64,000 nt of DNA from the NCBI GenBank assembly GCA_018609125.1, contig JABAYF010000010.1, positions 34,967 to 98,966 of the forward strand. The letters run 5' to 3'. The notes beneath the pieces are model-generated. The model was not told the DNA's origin and did not search any database. It worked only from the letters and a program-made list of their open reading frames with translations. Below are positions 14,957 to 38,310 of the stretch, piece after piece. The position numbers and the translations under genes are program-made. Within the stretch, counting starts at the first letter, position 1. Each line of letters opens with the position of its first letter. This DNA comes from Candidatus Nanopelagicales bacterium (lineage in GTDB: Bacteria > Actinomycetota > Actinomycetes > S36-B12).

Positions 14957-15546
14957 TGCGCCAGGTTGTTTTGGCCACGCGCAATCAGCACAAAATTGAC
15001 GAAGTGACCCGGATCCTGGCCGGAGCGGGCACGGAAATTGACGTCCTAGCCCTGCCTGCCGACGCACCAGAGGTGGTGGAGTCTGGCGCGACATTTGCGG
15101 CCAACGCCATGCTTAAGGCCCGATCTGCGGCCGCACACACCGGATTAGTGTCTATCGCCGATGATTCTGGCCTGTGCGTCGATGCTTTGAACGGGATGCC
15201 CGGCGTACTCTCTGCTCGTTGGGCCGGCACCCACGGCGACGACGCGGCTAATCTTGCGCTCTTGGTCGCCCAACTCGTCGATGTCGTTCCGGTGCGTCGC
15301 GGGGCGCAGTTTGTGTGCGCTGCAGCCGTAGTCGATCCACGCTCTGGCGATGAGCGTGTGGTCGAGGGAGTGCTGGAGGGCCGCATTGGTACCGAGGCGC
15401 GAGGGTTGAACGGATTCGGTTACGACCCCATTTTTATTCCAGACGGCGCGGAACTGACCACCGCGCAACTGCAGCCGGGCGAGAAGGACGCGATGAGTCA
15501 CCGAGGATCAGCCTTTCGCGCCGTTGCTGCCCTCCTGGTGCTCTAA
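14956..15546 (+). CDS. rdgB: XTP/dITP pyrophosphatase (RdgB/HAM1)
   Basis: VLATRNQHKIDEV, DDSGLCVDALNGMPGVLSARWAG, GYDPIFIPDG; GTG start. Confidence 0.94.
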   Translation: MRQVVLATRNQHKIDEVTRILAGAGTEIDVLALPADAPEVVESGATFAANAMLKARSAAAHTGLVSIADDSGLCVDALNGMPGVLSARWAGTHGDDAANLALLVAQLVDVVPVRRGAQFVCAAAVVDPRSGDERVVEGVLEGRIGTEARGLNGFGYDPIFIPDGAELTTAQLQPGEKDAMSHRGSAFRAVAALLVL

Positions 15547-15603: not shown

Positions 15604-15611
15604 ATGGAGCA

Positions 15612-15726
15612 GCAAGGGGAGTATCCCGGTTCAACCGGTGGTCGTCAGCACGGCGTAGACAATGCGCCCGGTCACTGGGTCGGCGTCCGCACCGATGGGC
15701 ACAGACACCGATGGGCAGAGACCTTG
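15612..15726 (+). promoter_or_regulatory. yybP-ykoY (Mn2+-sensing) riboswitch aptamer
   Basis: CAAGGGGAGTA...GTCGTCAGCACGG...CGCCCGGTC...GGGCAGAGACCTTG matches conserved blocks AAGGGGAGUA / GUCGUCA / GCANGACCUU; P1 closes perfectly: CAAGG 15613-15617 with CCTTG 15722-15726. Confidence 0.85.
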
Positions 15727-15772
15727 TGTCGTACACACGCGAGAGATTCTCCTGTGTGCTCAGACACGAAGG
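15722..15772 (+). promoter_or_regulatory. Expression platform: long hairpin that can sequester the Shine-Dalgarno of the downstream gene
   Basis: CCTTGTGTC (15722-15730) pairs with GACAC-g-AAGG (15763-15772); inner stems CACAC/GTGTG (15734-38/15754-58) and GAGA/TCTC (15741-44/15748-51); AAGGA at 15769 is the SD for ATG 15781. Confidence 0.7.
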
Positions 15773-15780
15773 AAAGCCCC

Positions 15781-16296
15781 ATGTCAACCGCTGAATCTCC
15801 TTCCCCCACCGGTTCCATCGAACGCGATGTCGAACTGCGGGAGCGACACATCGCCCGTCAAAAGCCCAGCCTCACACCGGAGGGCTTCGATCTGATCAAC
15901 GAAAGAATCGCTGACATTCATCAGCGGCGGTTGCCGGCACTGCGTCCCTTGCTCGTAGAGCACGAGCGTGACGAGCGCGATGTGGCCGCCTTTGAATCCC
16001 TGCTCGCTGAGGTTGTCGAGTGGGAGGCGCTCCTCGCCCAGGCTCAGGTGCTTGCACCGTCGGAATTCGTCAATCTCACCGAGGTCGGGCTTGGTTCCCG
16101 TGTTCACATCGCCTGCCCCGACGGTGAAACCATGTGGGTACGTCCGGTACATCCACGTGAAGCGTTCCTCGACGACGAGCGCATCTCGGTTGCTTCGCCG
16201 CTGGGTGCGGCACTTATGGGCGCTGCTGTGGGTGCGCAACTGCAGGTACCGGCTCCGACCGGTTCCTGGTGTGCGACGGTCCGTGCGATTGAGTAG
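15781..16296 (+). CDS. GreA/GreB-family-like transcription factor (divergent coiled-coil tip)
   Basis: C-terminus ISVASPLGAALMGAAVGAQLQVPAPTGSW matches Gre FKBP-like domain; N-terminal coiled coil; canonical DLSENAEY tip absent. Confidence 0.75.
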   Translation: MSTAESPSPTGSIERDVELRERHIARQKPSLTPEGFDLINERIADIHQRRLPALRPLLVEHERDERDVAAFESLLAEVVEWEALLAQAQVLAPSEFVNLTEVGLGSRVHIACPDGETMWVRPVHPREAFLDDERISVASPLGAALMGAAVGAQLQVPAPTGSWCATVRAIE

Positions 16297-16357: not shown

Positions 16358-17563
16358 GTGAAATTCCTGCACACCTCCGACTGGCATCTGGGGCGAGGGC
16401 TTCGCGGACACGATTTGTCAGCCGCCCAGCAGGTGGCCCTAGATGCAGTCATCGACATTGCAATTGAGCATAATGTCGATGCGTTCGTTATCGCCGGCGA
16501 CATATTTGATCGTGCATTCCCCGCGGTTGACGATGTACGCAGATTCAACCGTGCTCTTCGCCGAATAAATGACGCCCAGATTCCTATCATCGTTACTTCC
16601 GGCAACCACGATGAGGGCGCCCGATTAGCCGCCTACACCGAGCTTTTGAAAGATTCGGTGACGGTGATCGGAGAGTACGACCAGGTGGGCCACCGCGTGG
16701 ATCTTGGTGACAGCGCCGGACCGGTGGTTTTCTACCCACTGCCCTATCTCGACCCAGATGGTGCGCGGCGAAGTTTGGTCGCAGCCGATGCGCAGATGCT
16801 GGAACGCAGTCACGAGGCCGTCATGTCTGAAGCGATGAGACGAATCCGACTCGACCTCGCCCAGCGCCAGGTTGACCAGCCAACCACCCGCGCCGTTGTC
16901 GTGGCCCATGCTTTTGTCGTCAGCGGAACGCAAACCGCCGAAGGCCTGTTGGCCGAGCAATCCACGAGCGAAAGAGATATTTCTGTCGGGGGAGTGCCCT
17001 CGGTACCGGCCGGTGTGTTTGACGGTGTTCACTATGTCGCACTCGGTCATCTTCACGGGCCACGCACCGTGCAGGAACACGAACCCATGGTGCGGTACTC
17101 CGGATCACTGCTGCGCTATTCCATTTCTGAGCGAAACCACCGTAAGTCAGTGACGATCGTTGACATGGACGGCGACGGGCACTGCACGGTTGAGGAGATT
17201 GAGATCCCACAGCCGGCGCGCATGACCCGTCTAGAAGGTGAACTCGCAGAGCTTGTCTCCGGTAAATTTCACCAGCACCACGACGACTTCGTCGACATCG
17301 TCTTGACCGATAAATTCAAGGCCCCAAACGAGTGGGCGCAACTGAACGCGAAGTTCACCCGCATCCTTACCGTGACCCATCAGCGGTCAGCGGATGATTT
17401 ATGGGAAAGCGACAAACTATCCGCCGCAATGGTGTTAACGAAATCTCCGCTGGACCTCATGCGCAGTTTCTACCTGCAAGAGAGAAACGAAGCGCTCACT
17501 CCATCCATGGAGAGCATTCTGGTCGACGTGGTGGAACAAGCCCAAGGCCACGGGAAGTCCTAG
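16358..17563 (+). CDS. sbcD: Exonuclease subunit SbcD (Mre11 family)
   Basis: MKFLHTSDWHLGRGLRGHDL, VIAGDIFDRAFP, VTSGNHDEGARL; GTG start. Confidence 0.93.
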   Translation: MKFLHTSDWHLGRGLRGHDLSAAQQVALDAVIDIAIEHNVDAFVIAGDIFDRAFPAVDDVRRFNRALRRINDAQIPIIVTSGNHDEGARLAAYTELLKDSVTVIGEYDQVGHRVDLGDSAGPVVFYPLPYLDPDGARRSLVAADAQMLERSHEAVMSEAMRRIRLDLAQRQVDQPTTRAVVVAHAFVVSGTQTAEGLLAEQSTSERDISVGGVPSVPAGVFDGVHYVALGHLHGPRTVQEHEPMVRYSGSLLRYSISERNHRKSVTIVDMDGDGHCTVEEIEIPQPARMTRLEGELAELVSGKFHQHHDDFVDIVLTDKFKAPNEWAQLNAKFTRILTVTHQRSADDLWESDKLSAAMVLTKSPLDLMRSFYLQERNEALTPSMESILVDVVEQAQGHGKS

Positions 17564-17564
17564 C

Positions 17565-20315
17565 ATGCGCATCCGGTGGCTTGAGTTTGTCGGTTTCGGG
17601 CCTTACCGCGACCGTCAGGTGATTGATTTTGATCAACTTGGCGAGTCCGGGCTGTACCTCATCAACGGCCCCACGGGAGCTGGGAAATCCACGATCATTG
17701 ATGCGATTTGCTATGCACTCTATGGCCGGTTGGCCGGCGACGATGCCGATGCCAGCCGAATGCGATCGGACTTTTGTGCCCCAAACGAAAGCACCCAGGT
17801 CGTCGCGATCTTCCAGGTGGCCGCGGGCACTTTTCGAGTAGAACGCTCACCGGAGTACACCCGACCCAAACTCCGGGGTGGGGGTGACACCAAATCCCAT
17901 GCCACCTGCAAGCTTTTTCGCATCGGCGAAAATGGAGTCGAGAAAGAAGTCGCGCATCAAGTGGCGTCAGCCAATAGTGAGTTGCGCGAGATTCTGGGCC
18001 TTACCCGAGACCAGTTTGTCCAAACCGTGGTGCTGCCCCAGGGGCAGTTCGCCACTTTCTTGACGGCAGACACAAAGGATCGAGTGGATCTGCTGAAGAA
18101 AATCTTCGCCACTGATATTTACGAGCGCATCGCGCTGATCTTGAAGGAGCAGCAAAAGCAGGCAGGGGTAGAGCAAGCGGGCATCACTCATGACCTGCAG
18201 CGCAGTGTGAACGCACTGGTGACAGAACTGAGCCAAGACGGCCATGTGGAGGCAGATCTGAATCAGTGGGTGACGGACAGCCTTGATGATCAACTGCTGA
18301 CGGCACTGGCTGGTTATGGCCCTGCGCTGCAGTCGAGCAGTGCCCGGTTGCTCAAGGCTGCTCGTGTCGCGAGTGAGCAGGCCGAAGCTGCCGATGGCAA
18401 TCGAATTTTAGCCCACCGAGAAGCCACCGCTCGCAATGCCAATATTGCGGCCGGGGAGAAGCTCCTCTCCAGCACGGTAGATATGGAAGCTAAGAAGACG
18501 GCCGTCTTGACCCATCGGCAGGTGGCGTCATCGGTAGGTGTGGTGATTGACGACGACCCAGATGTGTCGGTATGGCGTTCCCGGGTGGGCGTAGTGGCGA
18601 CTTCCATAGGGCAACTGCGGGCGTTACTCGACGACGAGCGTGCCCTGGAACACTGGCCAATGGAGCGGGCCCAGGCTGAGAAAGACATGGCCGCACTGGT
18701 CGACGATGTTGACGGGCTACGGGCGCTAAAGCAGCAGCTGCCCACACTCATTGAGCAACGTGAGTTCGACGTTGCTAGCAGACCTACTGCCGGTGAGCAC
18801 ATGTCGTTGCAGCAACGCCTGGACCAACTGAGTGCAGATGAACGGCGGCTTGTGGACTTCGCAGATTTGAGCGCGACTGAAATTGCATTGCGTGCGGAAG
18901 TTTCCCAAGCGACGCGAGCAGCAGAGGTCGCTGCCGCCGCGGCGGATCAGATCAGCCGCATGTTCCGCGAGAGTGCCGCCGGTTCCCTTGCCCAAGACCT
19001 GATCGATGGACAACCATGTGGGGTTTGTGGGTCAAGCGTGCACCCGAACCCAGCGGTGAGTACCGGTGAAGCGATAAGCCTCGACGAAGTTGAACGCCTC
19101 AATCTTGCGTCCAGCACACGTCATCAAGAACTGGGCACGGCGCAAACGCGTCTACAAAACACAGTCGCAAAAATTGCGGAAATCCAGGTTTCAGCCCTGC
19201 CCCAATTGAATGAACTGACAGCGCAGCGCCGAGACTTGGAAGATAGCCAGGAGGCGTTAGATCGGCGAGAATCAACCGCTGATCAGGCTGATCTTGCCCT
19301 GGTAGACCTGCGTCAAAATAGTGAGGCACTCAGCGCAAGAATTGCCGAGGCAAACACACAGATTGCAAAGGCTCAGACAGCGCTGAGTACACGCGCCGCG
19401 CACATGGAAGTGATACGAGTCAAGGTCGAGGGAGCACTTCATTCATCCGCATCGATCGAAGCTCGAATCCAGGTCACCGGTGAGTTTCATGTGGCGCTAG
19501 AAGCACTGGCTGTGTCGCTAGACGCCCTGAATCTGGCCACGACCGCTGCAGAGTTCTGTGGTGCAGCGCTCAGCGCATTTCCAGCACGCGAGCAGTTTGG
19601 TGATGTGGCTGCCGCCGAAGAGGACTGGGTCAGGCTCAGTGCAGCTAAGGATGAAGCAGCTGAGCAAGCGCGTGCCGCAACGGAACGGTTGCGCCGGTAC
19701 ACCGATGGCCTGGAGAACATCCAGCAATTGCTTGAACAACGAGTGCAACTGGTTGCCGGCAACTCCGAGTTGGCGCACCTGGCTGAAACGTTCAACAGTG
19801 GTCGTGGCACTGATGTTGGCCTGCACATTTATGTACTGCGCGCACTGTTTGAAGAAGTAATGCTGCTGGCAAACGAGCGACTGAAAGACCTACTCAATGG
19901 TCGCTATCAACTTGTTGTCGCCGATGAGTCCGCTGCCGACATGCGCAGTTTGCACGGCTTAGGTGTGGCCGTTAGCGATGCTCTCACGGATAAACCGCGA
20001 CCTGCTGGGAGCCTCAGTGGTGGCGAAACATTTTGTGTTTCACTTGCCTTGGCCCTGGGGCTCTCCGATGCGGTACGCAGGAACGCCGGGGGCATTGAGA
20101 TCCGCTCGCTGTTCGTTGATGAGGGGTTTGGCACGCTCGATAATGATCAACTCGATGAGGTTATGAATATGCTCAATCAACTCAGCGGCGCGGGCCGCCA
20201 GGTCGGGTTGATCAGCCACGTGGAGAGCATGAAGGAAACGATCGGTGAACGTATTGAAGTACATGCGGTGCGCCTTGACCAACCCACTTCTTTAACCGTC
20301 AGCTGGATGACCTAG
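17565..20315 (+). CDS. sbcC: Exonuclease subunit SbcC (Rad50 family SMC-like ATPase)
   Basis: Walker A NGPTGAGKSTIIDAICYALYG; zinc hook QPCGVCGSSVHP; signature LSGGETFCVSLALALGLS. Confidence 0.94.
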   Translation: MRIRWLEFVGFGPYRDRQVIDFDQLGESGLYLINGPTGAGKSTIIDAICYALYGRLAGDDADASRMRSDFCAPNESTQVVAIFQVAAGTFRVERSPEYTRPKLRGGGDTKSHATCKLFRIGENGVEKEVAHQVASANSELREILGLTRDQFVQTVVLPQGQFATFLTADTKDRVDLLKKIFATDIYERIALILKEQQKQAGVEQAGITHDLQRSVNALVTELSQDGHVEADLNQWVTDSLDDQLLTALAGYGPALQSSSARLLKAARVASEQAEAADGNRILAHREATARNANIAAGEKLLSSTVDMEAKKTAVLTHRQVASSVGVVIDDDPDVSVWRSRVGVVATSIGQLRALLDDERALEHWPMERAQAEKDMAALVDDVDGLRALKQQLPTLIEQREFDVASRPTAGEHMSLQQRLDQLSADERRLVDFADLSATEIALRAEVSQATRAAEVAAAAADQISRMFRESAAGSLAQDLIDGQPCGVCGSSVHPNPAVSTGEAISLDEVERLNLASSTRHQELGTAQTRLQNTVAKIAEIQVSALPQLNELTAQRRDLEDSQEALDRRESTADQADLALVDLRQNSEALSARIAEANTQIAKAQTALSTRAAHMEVIRVKVEGALHSSASIEARIQVTGEFHVALEALAVSLDALNLATTAAEFCGAALSAFPAREQFGDVAAAEEDWVRLSAAKDEAAEQARAATERLRRYTDGLENIQQLLEQRVQLVAGNSELAHLAETFNSGRGTDVGLHIYVLRALFEEVMLLANERLKDLLNGRYQLVVADESAADMRSLHGLGVAVSDALTDKPRPAGSLSGGETFCVSLALALGLSDAVRRNAGGIEIRSLFVDEGFGTLDNDQLDEVMNMLNQLSGAGRQVGLISHVESMKETIGERIEVHAVRLDQPTSLTVSWMT

Positions 20316-34757: not shown

Positions 34758-36350
34758 TCACCAACCTGTGGATTTAGATGGGCGGGCTCGTTCGGCAACG
34801 CCCACGACCGTTGCGGTAACGATAACGAGAATGACTGAGAGTACGGCAGCCTGCCCGAGATTTGCTTCACCTGGACGTGACAGCAGTCGCACAATCTGAA
34901 CGGGAACCGTGGGTGTATCTGCACGAGCAAGAAAGGCCGTTGCTCCGAACTCGCCCAGCGAGACTGCTGCTGACAGCGCCCCTGCTACCGCTGCAGCGCG
35001 AAGCGCCAGTGGCCCGTCCACGGTGAGCCAAACGCGGATGGGTCGAGCGCCAAGTGAGGCCGCTACGTCGCGAAGACGCGGGTCGATAGAGCGCAGCACC
35101 GGTAGGACGACGCGCACCACGATCGGCATGGCGACCAGTGCCTGACCCAGGGGCACAAGGAGCCACCAGTCGCGTAGGTCCAGGGGCCCGCCGATGGAAA
35201 GCAGTAGCAGTCCAAGTCCGATGCTGACCGCGGAAATGCCAAGGGGCAGAGTCACTATGGTATCTAAAGTTGCCTGGCCTCGCTTAAGATGTGTCACTGA
35301 AATAGCGGCGAGCATGCCCAGCACAAGTGCGATCATCGTGGCCACCACTGCGTAGCGAGACGAGATCCATAGTGCTTCGGCAACCGGGGTGGCGCGGGTG
35401 GTGTTATCGCTGGGCGCGAAGGCTTCGGCATACCAGGTCAGACCCCAACTGTCGCCAACCTGCAGTGATGTCGCAACCAGCTGCGCAATGGGCAAGATGA
35501 CAGCGACTGCAACGAATACGGCGATGCTGACAGCCAGATAATCACCCGTGCCTCGGGGCCTCTCCCTGCGCGACACGTCGGCCACGACACCGACCACGCT
35601 GAGTCGCTGCTGTAACCGTGAAGCCAGTCCCAACGTGAAGACCACAACGACAAGTTGCAAGATCGCCAAGGCCGCTGCAGCGTCGAGATCCAGGCGTTGG
35701 ATTGCCCGCTGGTAGATCTCCACTTCGATCGTGGGTAGTGCTGGGTCACCTACCACGAGGACCACGCCGAATGAGGTGAAGGTAAACATGAAAACAAGCA
35801 CGCTGGCGGCGGTAATCGCTGGGCGCAGGAGCGGCCAGGTAATGAGTCGAAAGCGGGCAAATGCACTGGCCCCCAGTGAGGCAGCAACCTCACCCAGTCG
35901 ACCGTCTAGTTGCCCCCAGACGGCACCGATCACGCGAACCGCCAAACCCACATTGAAGAAAACGTGAGCCACGATGATCGCCCAGGTCGTGCCAGCGAAG
36001 GGGAGAAGTTCACGAAAGGCAAGGCCCACCACAACGGTAGGCAACACGAAAGGAATGGTGATCAGCGCGAGCCAGATGCGACGACCGGGGATGGAAAGTC
36101 GATAGAGCGCGAATGCCACCGGGAGAGCAAGGCCAATGCTTAACGCCGTGCTGACCAGTGCCTGAGCGGTGGTGTAGCCCATGACCCGCCAGGTCGAACC
36201 GGCCACCAGCGTGTCCCAAGACGCCGGTTGTAAGCCCTCGGTGAGCAGAGCCCAAAGTGGTGCCGCTATGAAGAGAGCGACAGCAGCAAGGGGCAGGAGC
36301 GCGAGGCCAAGTGGTCGTGCCGCCCTTAGCGCAGCACGATTTGAGTCCAC
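34758..36350 (-). CDS. thiP: Thiamine ABC transporter permease (two fused permease domains)
   Basis: Duplicated binding-protein-dependent permease motifs; overlaps ThiB gene end. Confidence 0.8.
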   Translation of the reverse strand: MDSNRAALRAARPLGLALLPLAAVALFIAAPLWALLTEGLQPASWDTLVAGSTWRVMGYTTAQALVSTALSIGLALPVAFALYRLSIPGRRIWLALITIPFVLPTVVVGLAFRELLPFAGTTWAIIVAHVFFNVGLAVRVIGAVWGQLDGRLGEVAASLGASAFARFRLITWPLLRPAITAASVLVFMFTFTSFGVVLVVGDPALPTIEVEIYQRAIQRLDLDAAAALAILQLVVVVFTLGLASRLQQRLSVVGVVADVSRRERPRGTGDYLAVSIAVFVAVAVILPIAQLVATSLQVGDSWGLTWYAEAFAPSDNTTRATPVAEALWISSRYAVVATMIALVLGMLAAISVTHLKRGQATLDTIVTLPLGISAVSIGLGLLLLSIGGPLDLRDWWLLVPLGQALVAMPIVVRVVLPVLRSIDPRLRDVAASLGARPIRVWLTVDGPLALRAAAVAGALSAAVSLGEFGATAFLARADTPTVPVQIVRLLSRPGEANLGQAAVLSVILVIVTATVVGVAERARPSKSTGW

Positions 36351-37441
36351 TCCTCCACCCAGGTCTCCCGTTGCGCCGCAATGGTGGCGGGGTCAATCTC
36401 AAGCGGAGCGTCCACTCGCTTGGCGAAGTTGGTGAACACCGTGGGCAGCGCAACGCCTTCGCGGGCGGGGAAGACAAACATCGACAGCGGAAAGTCTTCC
36501 TGCACCGGCTCCGAAACAAGCCAATCCACGACGATTTTCGCTGCCTCTGCCACCGGTGTACCGCGCAAAACTCCGGCGAACTCGATCTGGCGGTAGCAAC
36601 CATCGAGCATCACCGATGTGCTCGGCCGCGTCGGTTTGGGGTCGGCCGCGTAGACGATCTCCGCCGGGGGGCTCGTGGCGTAGGAAACAACGATCGGCCT
36701 GTCTCCGGAGCCGCCACCTGCGCTGAACTGACCCTGGTAGGCCTCAGACCATCCGTTGACGACCTCGACACCATTGTCGCGCAGGTCCTGCCAGTAGGTG
36801 GGCCAGTCATCTCCAAACCGGGCAACCGTCGCCATCAGGAAGGCCAGCCCGGGGGATGAGGTGGCTGGGTTTTGGACAACGAGCAGGTCGGCATAGGCGG
36901 GCTTGGTGAGGTCGGCCAATGTTGTGGGCGGCGCCACGTCATTGTCTGCAAACCATGCGTCGTCAAGATTGATACACACGTCACCATCGTCAACCGGGGT
37001 CACGACACCGAGACCGGCTTTGACCAGTTCTGGCCGTAGCGGTGCGTCGGCCACATAGGGATCGAACACGTCTGCATCAATCGCTCGAGACAGCAGGGTG
37101 GTGTCCACCCCGAAGAGAACATCGCCGTCCGGGTTGCCAGCGGCAAGCACCGCCCGATTAACGATCTCGCCGGCATCTCCGGCAGCGATGAGTTCAAGCA
37201 CAATGTTGTTCTCTGCCTCGAAATCAGCGACGAGGGATTCGGTCAGGGCGAAGGAGTCGTGCGTGATGACACGCACCACAACGGGATCGCCGTTGGTGTC
37301 GACGGTGGTTGAAGTCTCACCGCCGGAAGTCCCACCACAGGCGGCCAAGACGAGGCCGGTGGTGAGTAGCCCCGTGGTGAGTGCAGTGAAGCGCGCCACC
37401 GCCGGAGCAGTGGAGCCCTGAGAAAAAAAGCGACGAAACAT
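36326..37441 (-). CDS. thiB: Thiamine ABC transporter substrate-binding lipoprotein
   Basis: Lipobox VLAACGG; VVRVITHDSFALTESLVADFEAENN; start ATG immediately 3' of the TPP riboswitch. Confidence 0.85.
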   Translation of the reverse strand: MFRRFFSQGSTAPAVARFTALTTGLLTTGLVLAACGGTSGGETSTTVDTNGDPVVVRVITHDSFALTESLVADFEAENNIVLELIAAGDAGEIVNRAVLAAGNPDGDVLFGVDTTLLSRAIDADVFDPYVADAPLRPELVKAGLGVVTPVDDGDVCINLDDAWFADNDVAPPTTLADLTKPAYADLLVVQNPATSSPGLAFLMATVARFGDDWPTYWQDLRDNGVEVVNGWSEAYQGQFSAGGGSGDRPIVVSYATSPPAEIVYAADPKPTRPSTSVMLDGCYRQIEFAGVLRGTPVAEAAKIVVDWLVSEPVQEDFPLSMFVFPAREGVALPTVFTNFAKRVDAPLEIDPATIAAQRETWVEEWTQIVLR

Positions 37442-37447
37442 AAGAAG

Positions 37448-37539
37448 TCTCCCTCCGCTGGCATTACCCAGATCAGGTTGTAATGGGTCGGTGACGGCCG
37501 TCACCCTCTCAGCCCACTGATCCTGCGAGCTCCCCTGGT
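37448..37539 (-). promoter_or_regulatory. TPP riboswitch (THI element)
   Basis: Minus strand ACCAGGGGAGC...GGGCTGAGAGGGTGAC...GACCC...ACCTGATCTGGGTAATGCCAGCGGAGGGA, canonical. Confidence 0.96.
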
Positions 37540-37611
37540 AAAGCAACCCTAGCGCATTGGCTGGGGTGTGCTGGTTGTGCCGGAAAGTAGCGGTGATGCC
37601 ACAGTGGGGGC

Positions 37612-38310
37612 ATGGGAGATCTCGCGGGAAAGTCAGTTTTGATTGTTGGCGCAACAGGTGGTCTTGGTCGACCCATCGCTCAGTTGCTCAAGGATGCTGG
37701 GGCAGTGCTGACGATGACGGGCCGAGACGATGCCCGACTCGCGGCCTTGTCCCCGCTGGGTCGCACCGTTTTGATTGATGTTCGTCGCGCCGATGGCATT
37801 GCCACAGCGGTGAATACCGCGGTTGCTGAACGCGGTGGCCTTGACGGGGTAGTTTTTTGCGCGGGAGTGGTGGCTTTCGGTGCCGCTGTGGACACACCCG
37901 ATGACGTGCTCATTGAACTGTTCACTACCAACACTTTGGCGCCCATCAGATTGATGAAGGCGGCGGCCGAGCAACTGCGTGAGTCGGCAAGTCAGGGCCG
38001 CGATCCGTTCCTGGTCAATGTCAGCGCCGTCGTTGCCGAGCAGCCGATGGCCGGCATGGCCGCCTACAGCGCGGCGAAGGCAGCGTTGATGGCCTACGAC
38101 CATGCTGCATCCCGCGAACTGCGACGAGGCGGGATCCGGCTGATCGATGCTCGTCCACCGCATACCGAAACTGGTCTGGCAGATCACCCCATTCATGGCG
38201 AAGCCCCCCGGTTACCCGAGGGGCTAACTGCCATGGCGGTGGCCGAGCGAATCGTGACCGCCATCACCGCTGGAGAGCGGGATCTGCCGAGTACGGCATT
38301 TACCGGTTAG
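37612..38310 (+). CDS. SDR family oxidoreductase
   Basis: VLIVGATGGLGRPIA; AYSAAKAAL. Confidence 0.85.
   Translation: MGDLAGKSVLIVGATGGLGRPIAQLLKDAGAVLTMTGRDDARLAALSPLGRTVLIDVRRADGIATAVNTAVAERGGLDGVVFCAGVVAFGAAVDTPDDVLIELFTTNTLAPIRLMKAAAEQLRESASQGRDPFLVNVSAVVAEQPMAGMAAYSAAKAALMAYDHAASRELRRGGIRLIDARPPHTETGLADHPIHGEAPRLPEGLTAMAVAERIVTAITAGERDLPSTAFTG

Follow-up and report, generated by a model that had tools for sequence, protein, structure and literature searches.

A predicted Mn2+-class riboswitch precedes the gene for a Gre-like RNA polymerase factor in Candidatus Nanopelagicales and related actinobacteria

The window analysed here is a 64,000-nucleotide stretch of a Candidatus Nanopelagicales genome in which the intergenic region between rdgB (ending at 15546) and a 171-aa ORF (15781–16296) holds a structured leader. 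A first-pass annotation had noticed sequence blocks of the Mn2+ (yybP-ykoY) riboswitch class there, and the blocks it named (GGGGAGTA at 15616–15623, GTCGTCA at 15641–15647, and GAGACC at 15718–15723) and the pairings it drew are all in place; as a description of the aptamer it was right in these blocks and lacked helices P1.2, P3.1, P3.2, and P4, which are included below. A promoter scan recognised no sigma-70-like promoter upstream of the leader. SbcD and an SbcC-like ORF follow close behind the Gre-like gene (16358–20315), and SbcCD is a Mn2+-dependent nuclease; a linkage with SbcD/SbcC was rejected on the absence of SbcD beside other Gre-like loci, as was one with rdgB, which occurs beside one other Gre-like locus that lacks the switch. 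The window also contains an ordinary TPP riboswitch (37433–37546, − strand; 56.7 bits), behind which lie a thiamine-binding-protein-like ORF (36326–37654, −) and an ABC permease (34758–36350, −). The features of the leader and its gene are as follows.

15611–15728, + strand: putative Mn2+ (yybP-ykoY, alx-type) riboswitch aptamer
15613–15617 and 15722–15726, + strand: P1.1 switch helix, CAAGG (5′ strand) with CCTTG
15618–15623, + strand: L1 5′ strand, GGAGUA, identical in 24 close relatives
15624–15627, + strand: P1.2 5′ strand, UCCC, with partners 15713–15715 and A15717 and a bulged C15716 (GGG-c-A, 15713–15717)
15635–15644 and 15669–15678, + strand: P3.1
15645–15651, + strand: L3, the seven-base bulge UCAGCAC between P3.1 and P3.2
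15652–15668, + strand: P3.2 hairpin, GGCGU/GCGCC, strands 15652–15656 and 15664–15668
15680–15711, + strand: P4 hairpin of variable length, strands 15680–15687 and 15704–15711, from helices 5 and 6 of the covariation alignment and from the R2 alignment
15718–15721, + strand: L1 3′ strand, GAGA, identical in 24 close relatives
15722–15730, + strand: shared switching strand CCUUGUGUC, predicted to act as the P1.1 3′ strand (ligand-bound) or as the anti-SD strand (free)
15722–15772, + strand: predicted hairpin sequestering the Shine-Dalgarno (SD) sequence, the expression platform, with an MFE of −22.8 kcal/mol when folded alone
15769–15773, + strand: SD AAGGA, 7 nt before the ATG at 15781
15781–16296, + strand: predicted Gre/Gfh-type RNA polymerase secondary-channel factor, 171 aa, with tip R63-D64-E65-R66

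Both loops of the class are present. The L1 motif GGGGAGUA lies opposite GAGACC between P1.1 and P1.2, and the L3 bulge, with its invariant adenosine, is flanked by P3.1 and P3.2 and aligns with UCAUUAC in the alx leader of E. coli. By analogy with the class, for which an A-minor contact made by A10 and an invariable metal-binding adenosine in L3 have been described (PMC6754395), A15620 would be the equivalent of A10, and A15647 is predicted to be the Mn2+-binding adenosine. Both residues are unchanged throughout the relatives, A15647 in the sets of 24 and of 67 sequences. A15647 is presumably A41 of the L. lactis member, residue for residue. Crystal structures of the class show a four-way junction that includes P2; neither the window leader nor its relatives have a P2 hairpin separating L1 from P3. 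Because the validated alx leader has no obvious P2 either, this helix does not seem to be universal in the class.

The class assignment draws on two covariance models. R1 was built from 24 leaders of Gre-like gene homologues in related genomes and gives the window leader 78.3 bits, a score to be read with the window sequence itself among the training leaders. Because circularity was to be avoided, R2 was trained outside the window's order, on 67 TerC/GDT1 leaders from other actinomycete orders that include zero Gre leaders. Across the 64-kb window R2 returned one significant match, the aptamer at 15611–15728 (55.8 bits, E=2.1e-12), which is far above chance. The E. coli alx leader is recognised by R1 (37.9 bits) and, end to end, by R2 (42.4 bits, E=3.7e-9), and in the R2 alignment of alx with the window leader GGGGAGUA, UCGUCANNACG, CCGG, and GAGACCU fall in register. 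The Rfam model RF00080, which the first-pass annotation had proposed as a check, gave no match to the window leader at a threshold as loose as E=10, and across the leader's own genome it returned just fragments scoring under 12 bits, all of them elsewhere. In 120 genomes of the phylum it had zero matches over the gathering cut-off (45 bits), and R2 recovers all three of its sub-threshold matches there. At face value the missing match would speak against the element. The same model failed to find E. coli alx at E<1 and placed E. coli mntP below the cut-off at 41.6 bits; since both of these leaders, which are reported to respond to Mn2+ (PMC9603457), fall short too, the negative result appears to be a property of the model and not counter-evidence. 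An older version of RF00080 had detected the C. glutamicum cg2157 terC leader at 49 bits (PMC3890552). The R2 match, the cross-recognition of alx, and the exporter genes found behind the same element (see below) support the proposed assignment of the leader as a likely alx-type aptamer of the Mn2+ (yybP-ykoY) class.

Base-pair covariation is consistent with this architecture. In an alignment of 67 sequences fitted to the related structure, which somewhat inflates the counts and whose bias is kept in the slid control, the covariation score was 0.583 against 0.178 for shuffled and at most 0.136 for slid alignments, 94.2% of cells paired against 70.0% after shuffling, and two-sided changes occurred in 22 of 27 pairs. 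By helix, paired cells in these 67 relatives amounted to 97.9% in P1.1 (two-sided changes in three of five pairs), 95.1% in P1.2 (two-sided changes UA/CG/GC), 94.2% in P3.1 (six of seven), and 95.7% in P3.2 (four of five), and among close relatives the outer pair of P1.1 swaps between C-G and G-C. As judged from these substitutions, covariation supports P1.1, P1.2, P3, and P4 as predicted helices. A MAFFT-only alignment of the distant leaders misaligned P3, and a CM-guided alignment was used instead; GG/CC pairs placed inside L1 by RNAalifold (columns 8–17 and 9–16) showed no covariation and were dropped.

The 3′ strand of P1.1 has a second potential partner downstream. In the alternative hairpin, CCTTGTGTC (15722–15730) pairs with GACAC-g-AAGG (15763–15772) around the inner stems CACAC (15734–15738)/GTGTG (15754–15758) and GAGA (15741–15744)/TCTC (15748–15751). 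The unconstrained MFE fold of the leader forms this SD hairpin and leaves P1 open, as is expected for the ligand-free state. Among relatives, the best duplex of the P1 3′ strand with the pre-start sequence covers the SD in 97 of 128 leaders, with a mean duplex energy of −15.3 kcal/mol for a leader's own sequence compared with −10.6 for swapped and −8.9 for shuffled partners. Leaders with CCTTGTG carry their own complement, [CT][AG][CT][AG][AG]GG, downstream in 24 of 26 cases and that of CCTTCGG in 0 of 26, and leaders with CCTTCGG carry their own in 18 of 21 and the other in 3 of 21, while the P1 5′ strand varies in step with the 3′ strand (CAAGG, GAAGG, GGAGG). By these patterns one strand co-varies with two mutually exclusive partners, the P1 5′ strand and the SD region. 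The claim that P1 and the SD hairpin exclude each other is borne out by strand 15722–15730, common to both, and the P1/anti-SD covariation that had been suggested as a check is found in the relatives. Taken with the role of P1 as the ligand-stabilised helix in the Xanthomonas member (PMC6754395), this triple covariation predicts Mn2+-ON translation.

The downstream gene had been called Gre-like, and its product indeed matches PF01272 (48.5 bits, cut-off 26.9). An AlphaFold model calculated with 35 homologues (pLDDT 91.9) has two helices (33–59 and 65–87) that meet in a loop at the tip, and a beta domain at the C terminus, and its best Foldseek matches are an RpoB-GreA model, RNA polymerase-bound Gfh1 (E 1e-11, TM 0.80–0.81 by target, <30% identity), GreB, and GreA. 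The NCBIfam GreA, GreB, and Rnk models all score it far below their cut-offs (greA 45 bits against 139; PRK05753 (Rnk), the best weak match, 46.5 against 109), and the genome encodes a separate standard GreA with GDLKEN and a coiled-coil stretch of 69 residues, compared with 60 in the Gre-like protein. The tip residues R63-D64-E65 are unchanged in 35 sequences. A GreA/GreB cleavage factor was rejected as its identity on the RDER tip, the lack of GDLKEN, and the coiled coil nine residues shorter; fold, tip, and coiled-coil length place the protein in a secondary-channel subfamily of its own. It would be expected to bind RNA polymerase, and it may inhibit the enzyme as Gfh1 and Rv3788 do or have a Mn-specific activity. 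At one further locus (L214:873-1739), which has no detectable riboswitch, the Gre-like domain is fused behind approximately 130 residues of another domain.

The element is widespread: R1 matches occur in 81 of the 195 relatives and, across the class, in about two thirds of the genomes sampled (233 of 346). RF00080 overlooks these actinomycete members, and the current version of that model contains no P1 helix. Behind the 137 non-redundant R1 matches for which the downstream DNA was read lie genes, identified with Pfam, for TerC (91), GDT1/UPF0016 (12), Na/Ca exchangers (3), the Gre-like protein (26), and a few others, the Gre-like genes standing alone in 20 cases, after TerC in four, and after PGPGW in two. 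It is established that the Mn2+ class regulates TerC, GDT1/MneA-type, and related cation transporters (PMC13274385), and these exporter genes follow the same RNA family, not the window locus itself. Several other genes were seen in these positions. Small PGPGW (PF09656) membrane proteins come directly after the riboswitch at L040, L050, L056, and L060 and often follow TerC in riboswitch-led clusters, marking them as a candidate Mn-related family; a baeRF_family3 (release-factor-like) protein follows it in two genomes of the order (L157, L159); and a Gly/Ala-rich, partly disordered protein follows it at L101 and L138, with no Pfam match for the one tested (L101). Small lipoprotein-like genes, also with no Pfam match, lie between riboswitch and TerC at L166 and L167 and after TerC at L063.

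Among 84,980 species genomes scanned, the Gre-like subfamily is represented at 41 loci, in records of uncultured actinobacteria that include several Candidatus Nanopelagicales. Three carry the label 'MAG: Bifidobacterium breve' (L190, L197, L207) and are probably mislabelled, since all other records with the subfamily are of uncultured actinobacteria that look mostly aquatic. With three of the 41 loci too near a contig edge, the element was found upstream on the same strand in 32 of the 38 testable loci, and in a second survey, whose genomes overlap those of the first, at 21 of 24. Six Gre-like loci lack it despite sufficient sequence upstream, and the coupling is therefore not universal. The pairing of riboswitch and Gre-like gene, which had been flagged as an unusual regulon member, is nevertheless recurrent, with more than 30 genomes of freshwater actinobacteria showing it. 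The literature searched, to which the founding papers with their gene lists (Dambach 2015, Price 2015) did not belong, yielded no link between a Mn riboswitch and a Gre factor and nothing pertinent on Gfh factors with Mn2+; the RNA belongs to a known class, and the Gre target is, as far as checked, new.

The arrangement of these loci bears on whether the control of the Gre-like gene could be incidental, TerC being the ancestral target and the Gre gene having stayed under the switch, with no role in Mn, once terC was lost. Eight of the 32 loci have the element before a TerC-Gre operon (a less certain count, as in three of them the TerC frame was called from near-identical neighbours or from an alternative-frame translation), and the window genome is itself without TerC, as this explanation would have it. 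Direct pairing is commoner, however, at 23 loci spread over many genera and families (the remaining locus has the element before PGPGW-Gre), and the covariation of switch and platform has been kept, which makes incidental control unlikely.

Within its own genome the window leader is the one R1 match and the one significant R2 match (the next has E=0.7), and the only detectable Mn riboswitch there would consequently drive the Gre-like gene. A search of this 97% complete genome limited to TerC, GDT1, and MntP found none of these families. Their absence would suit a leader with the same fold and ON switch tuned to another divalent metal (Fe2+, Co2+, Ni2+, or Cd2+) or mainly to alkaline pH, with the Gre-like protein answering that stress, and there is precedent in the yybP variants for which altered metal specificity is suspected by Breaker's group (PMC7266159) and in the response of the alx and mntP switches to alkaline pH as well (PMC9603457). 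Against this stand the invariance of the Mn-contacting adenosine and of the L1/L3 positions and the occurrence of the same leader before TerC, GDT1, and Na/Ca-exchanger genes, and we regard a different signal as unlikely. It is scarcely credible that a different structured element, such as a protein-binding autoregulatory site or an N-terminal extension, merely resembles the Mn2+ class: the RF00080 negative and a Gre-like frame that stays open back to 15592 in the window are outweighed by base-pair covariation, by the unrelated exporter genes behind the same element, by recognition of the validated E. coli alx leader with both R1 and R2, and by a frame that is closed across the leader in several relatives (e.g., L007, L018), on which an in-frame extension was rejected.

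The leader is thus very probably a Mn2+-ON translational switch of the yybP-ykoY class for a protein of the Gre/Gfh fold, a reading for which the aptamer class, the alternative pairings, the gene identity, and the recurrence with Mn-exporter genes have been shown computationally. In the absence of Mn2+, CCUUGUGUC would pair with GACACgAAGG and hide the SD, and the Gre-like protein would not be made; at high Mn2+, binding of the metal between L1 and L3 would stabilise P1.1 (CAAGG/CCUUG), free the SD, and turn translation on. The product may then insert into the secondary channel of RNA polymerase and tune its catalysis, backtracking, or proofreading under Mn2+ excess. More tentatively, the riboswitch may directly control a secondary-channel factor devoted to retuning RNA polymerase during Mn2+ overload, when the active site would load Mn2+ in place of Mg2+, and protection of the polymerase from Mn2+ could be its physiological reason. 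On this reading the gene would encode a factor that guards the fidelity or elongation of transcription under riboswitch control, and some lineages would mount their entire Mn riboswitch response with no known exporter.

Mn2+ riboswitches are known as activators of transporters and of TerC-type membrane proteins. A recurrent target that binds RNA polymerase would imply that transcription itself is disturbed by excess Mn2+ and that the cellular response acts on the polymerase, and it raises the question of whether Mn2+ at the active site of this enzyme provokes mistakes or pausing for a Gre/Gfh factor to correct or suppress. The association also provides a regulatory context, and hence a likely function, for a Gre subfamily that had none.

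Among known systems, the leader most resembles those of E. coli alx and mntP, members of the RF00080 class, with which it shares GGGGAGUA/GAGACC in L1, an L3 of UCAGCAC where that of alx is UCAUUAC, the CCGG strand of P3.1, and a P1.1 that competes with the expression platform; like alx, it has no clear P2. It differs from them in its target, a Gre-like factor and not a Mn exporter, in the bulged C of P1.2, and in a score under RF00080 detection. The C. glutamicum cg2157 terC leader is of the same class, with TerC and not Gre as its target (PMC3890552). On the protein side, the two-domain fold and the PF01272 C-terminal domain are common to GreA and GreB, from which the Gre-like protein is set apart by the lack of the GDLKEN catalytic tip seen in the genome's own GreA and by a coiled-coil stretch of 60 residues where that GreA has 69. 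The coiled coil of Rnk is far shorter (PMC4598747). Gfh1 of Thermus/Deinococcus and Rv3788 of M. tuberculosis, which inhibit RNA polymerase catalysis (PMC4598747), share with it the Gre fold and an acidic tip. The Gre-like protein is distinguished from both by its own subfamily, its RDER tip, and its shorter coiled coil. We know of no Mn riboswitch control of either Gfh1 or Rv3788. For Deinococcus Gfh factors, strong inhibition in the presence of Mn2+ has reportedly been observed; this would agree well with the present findings and is mentioned as a lead only.
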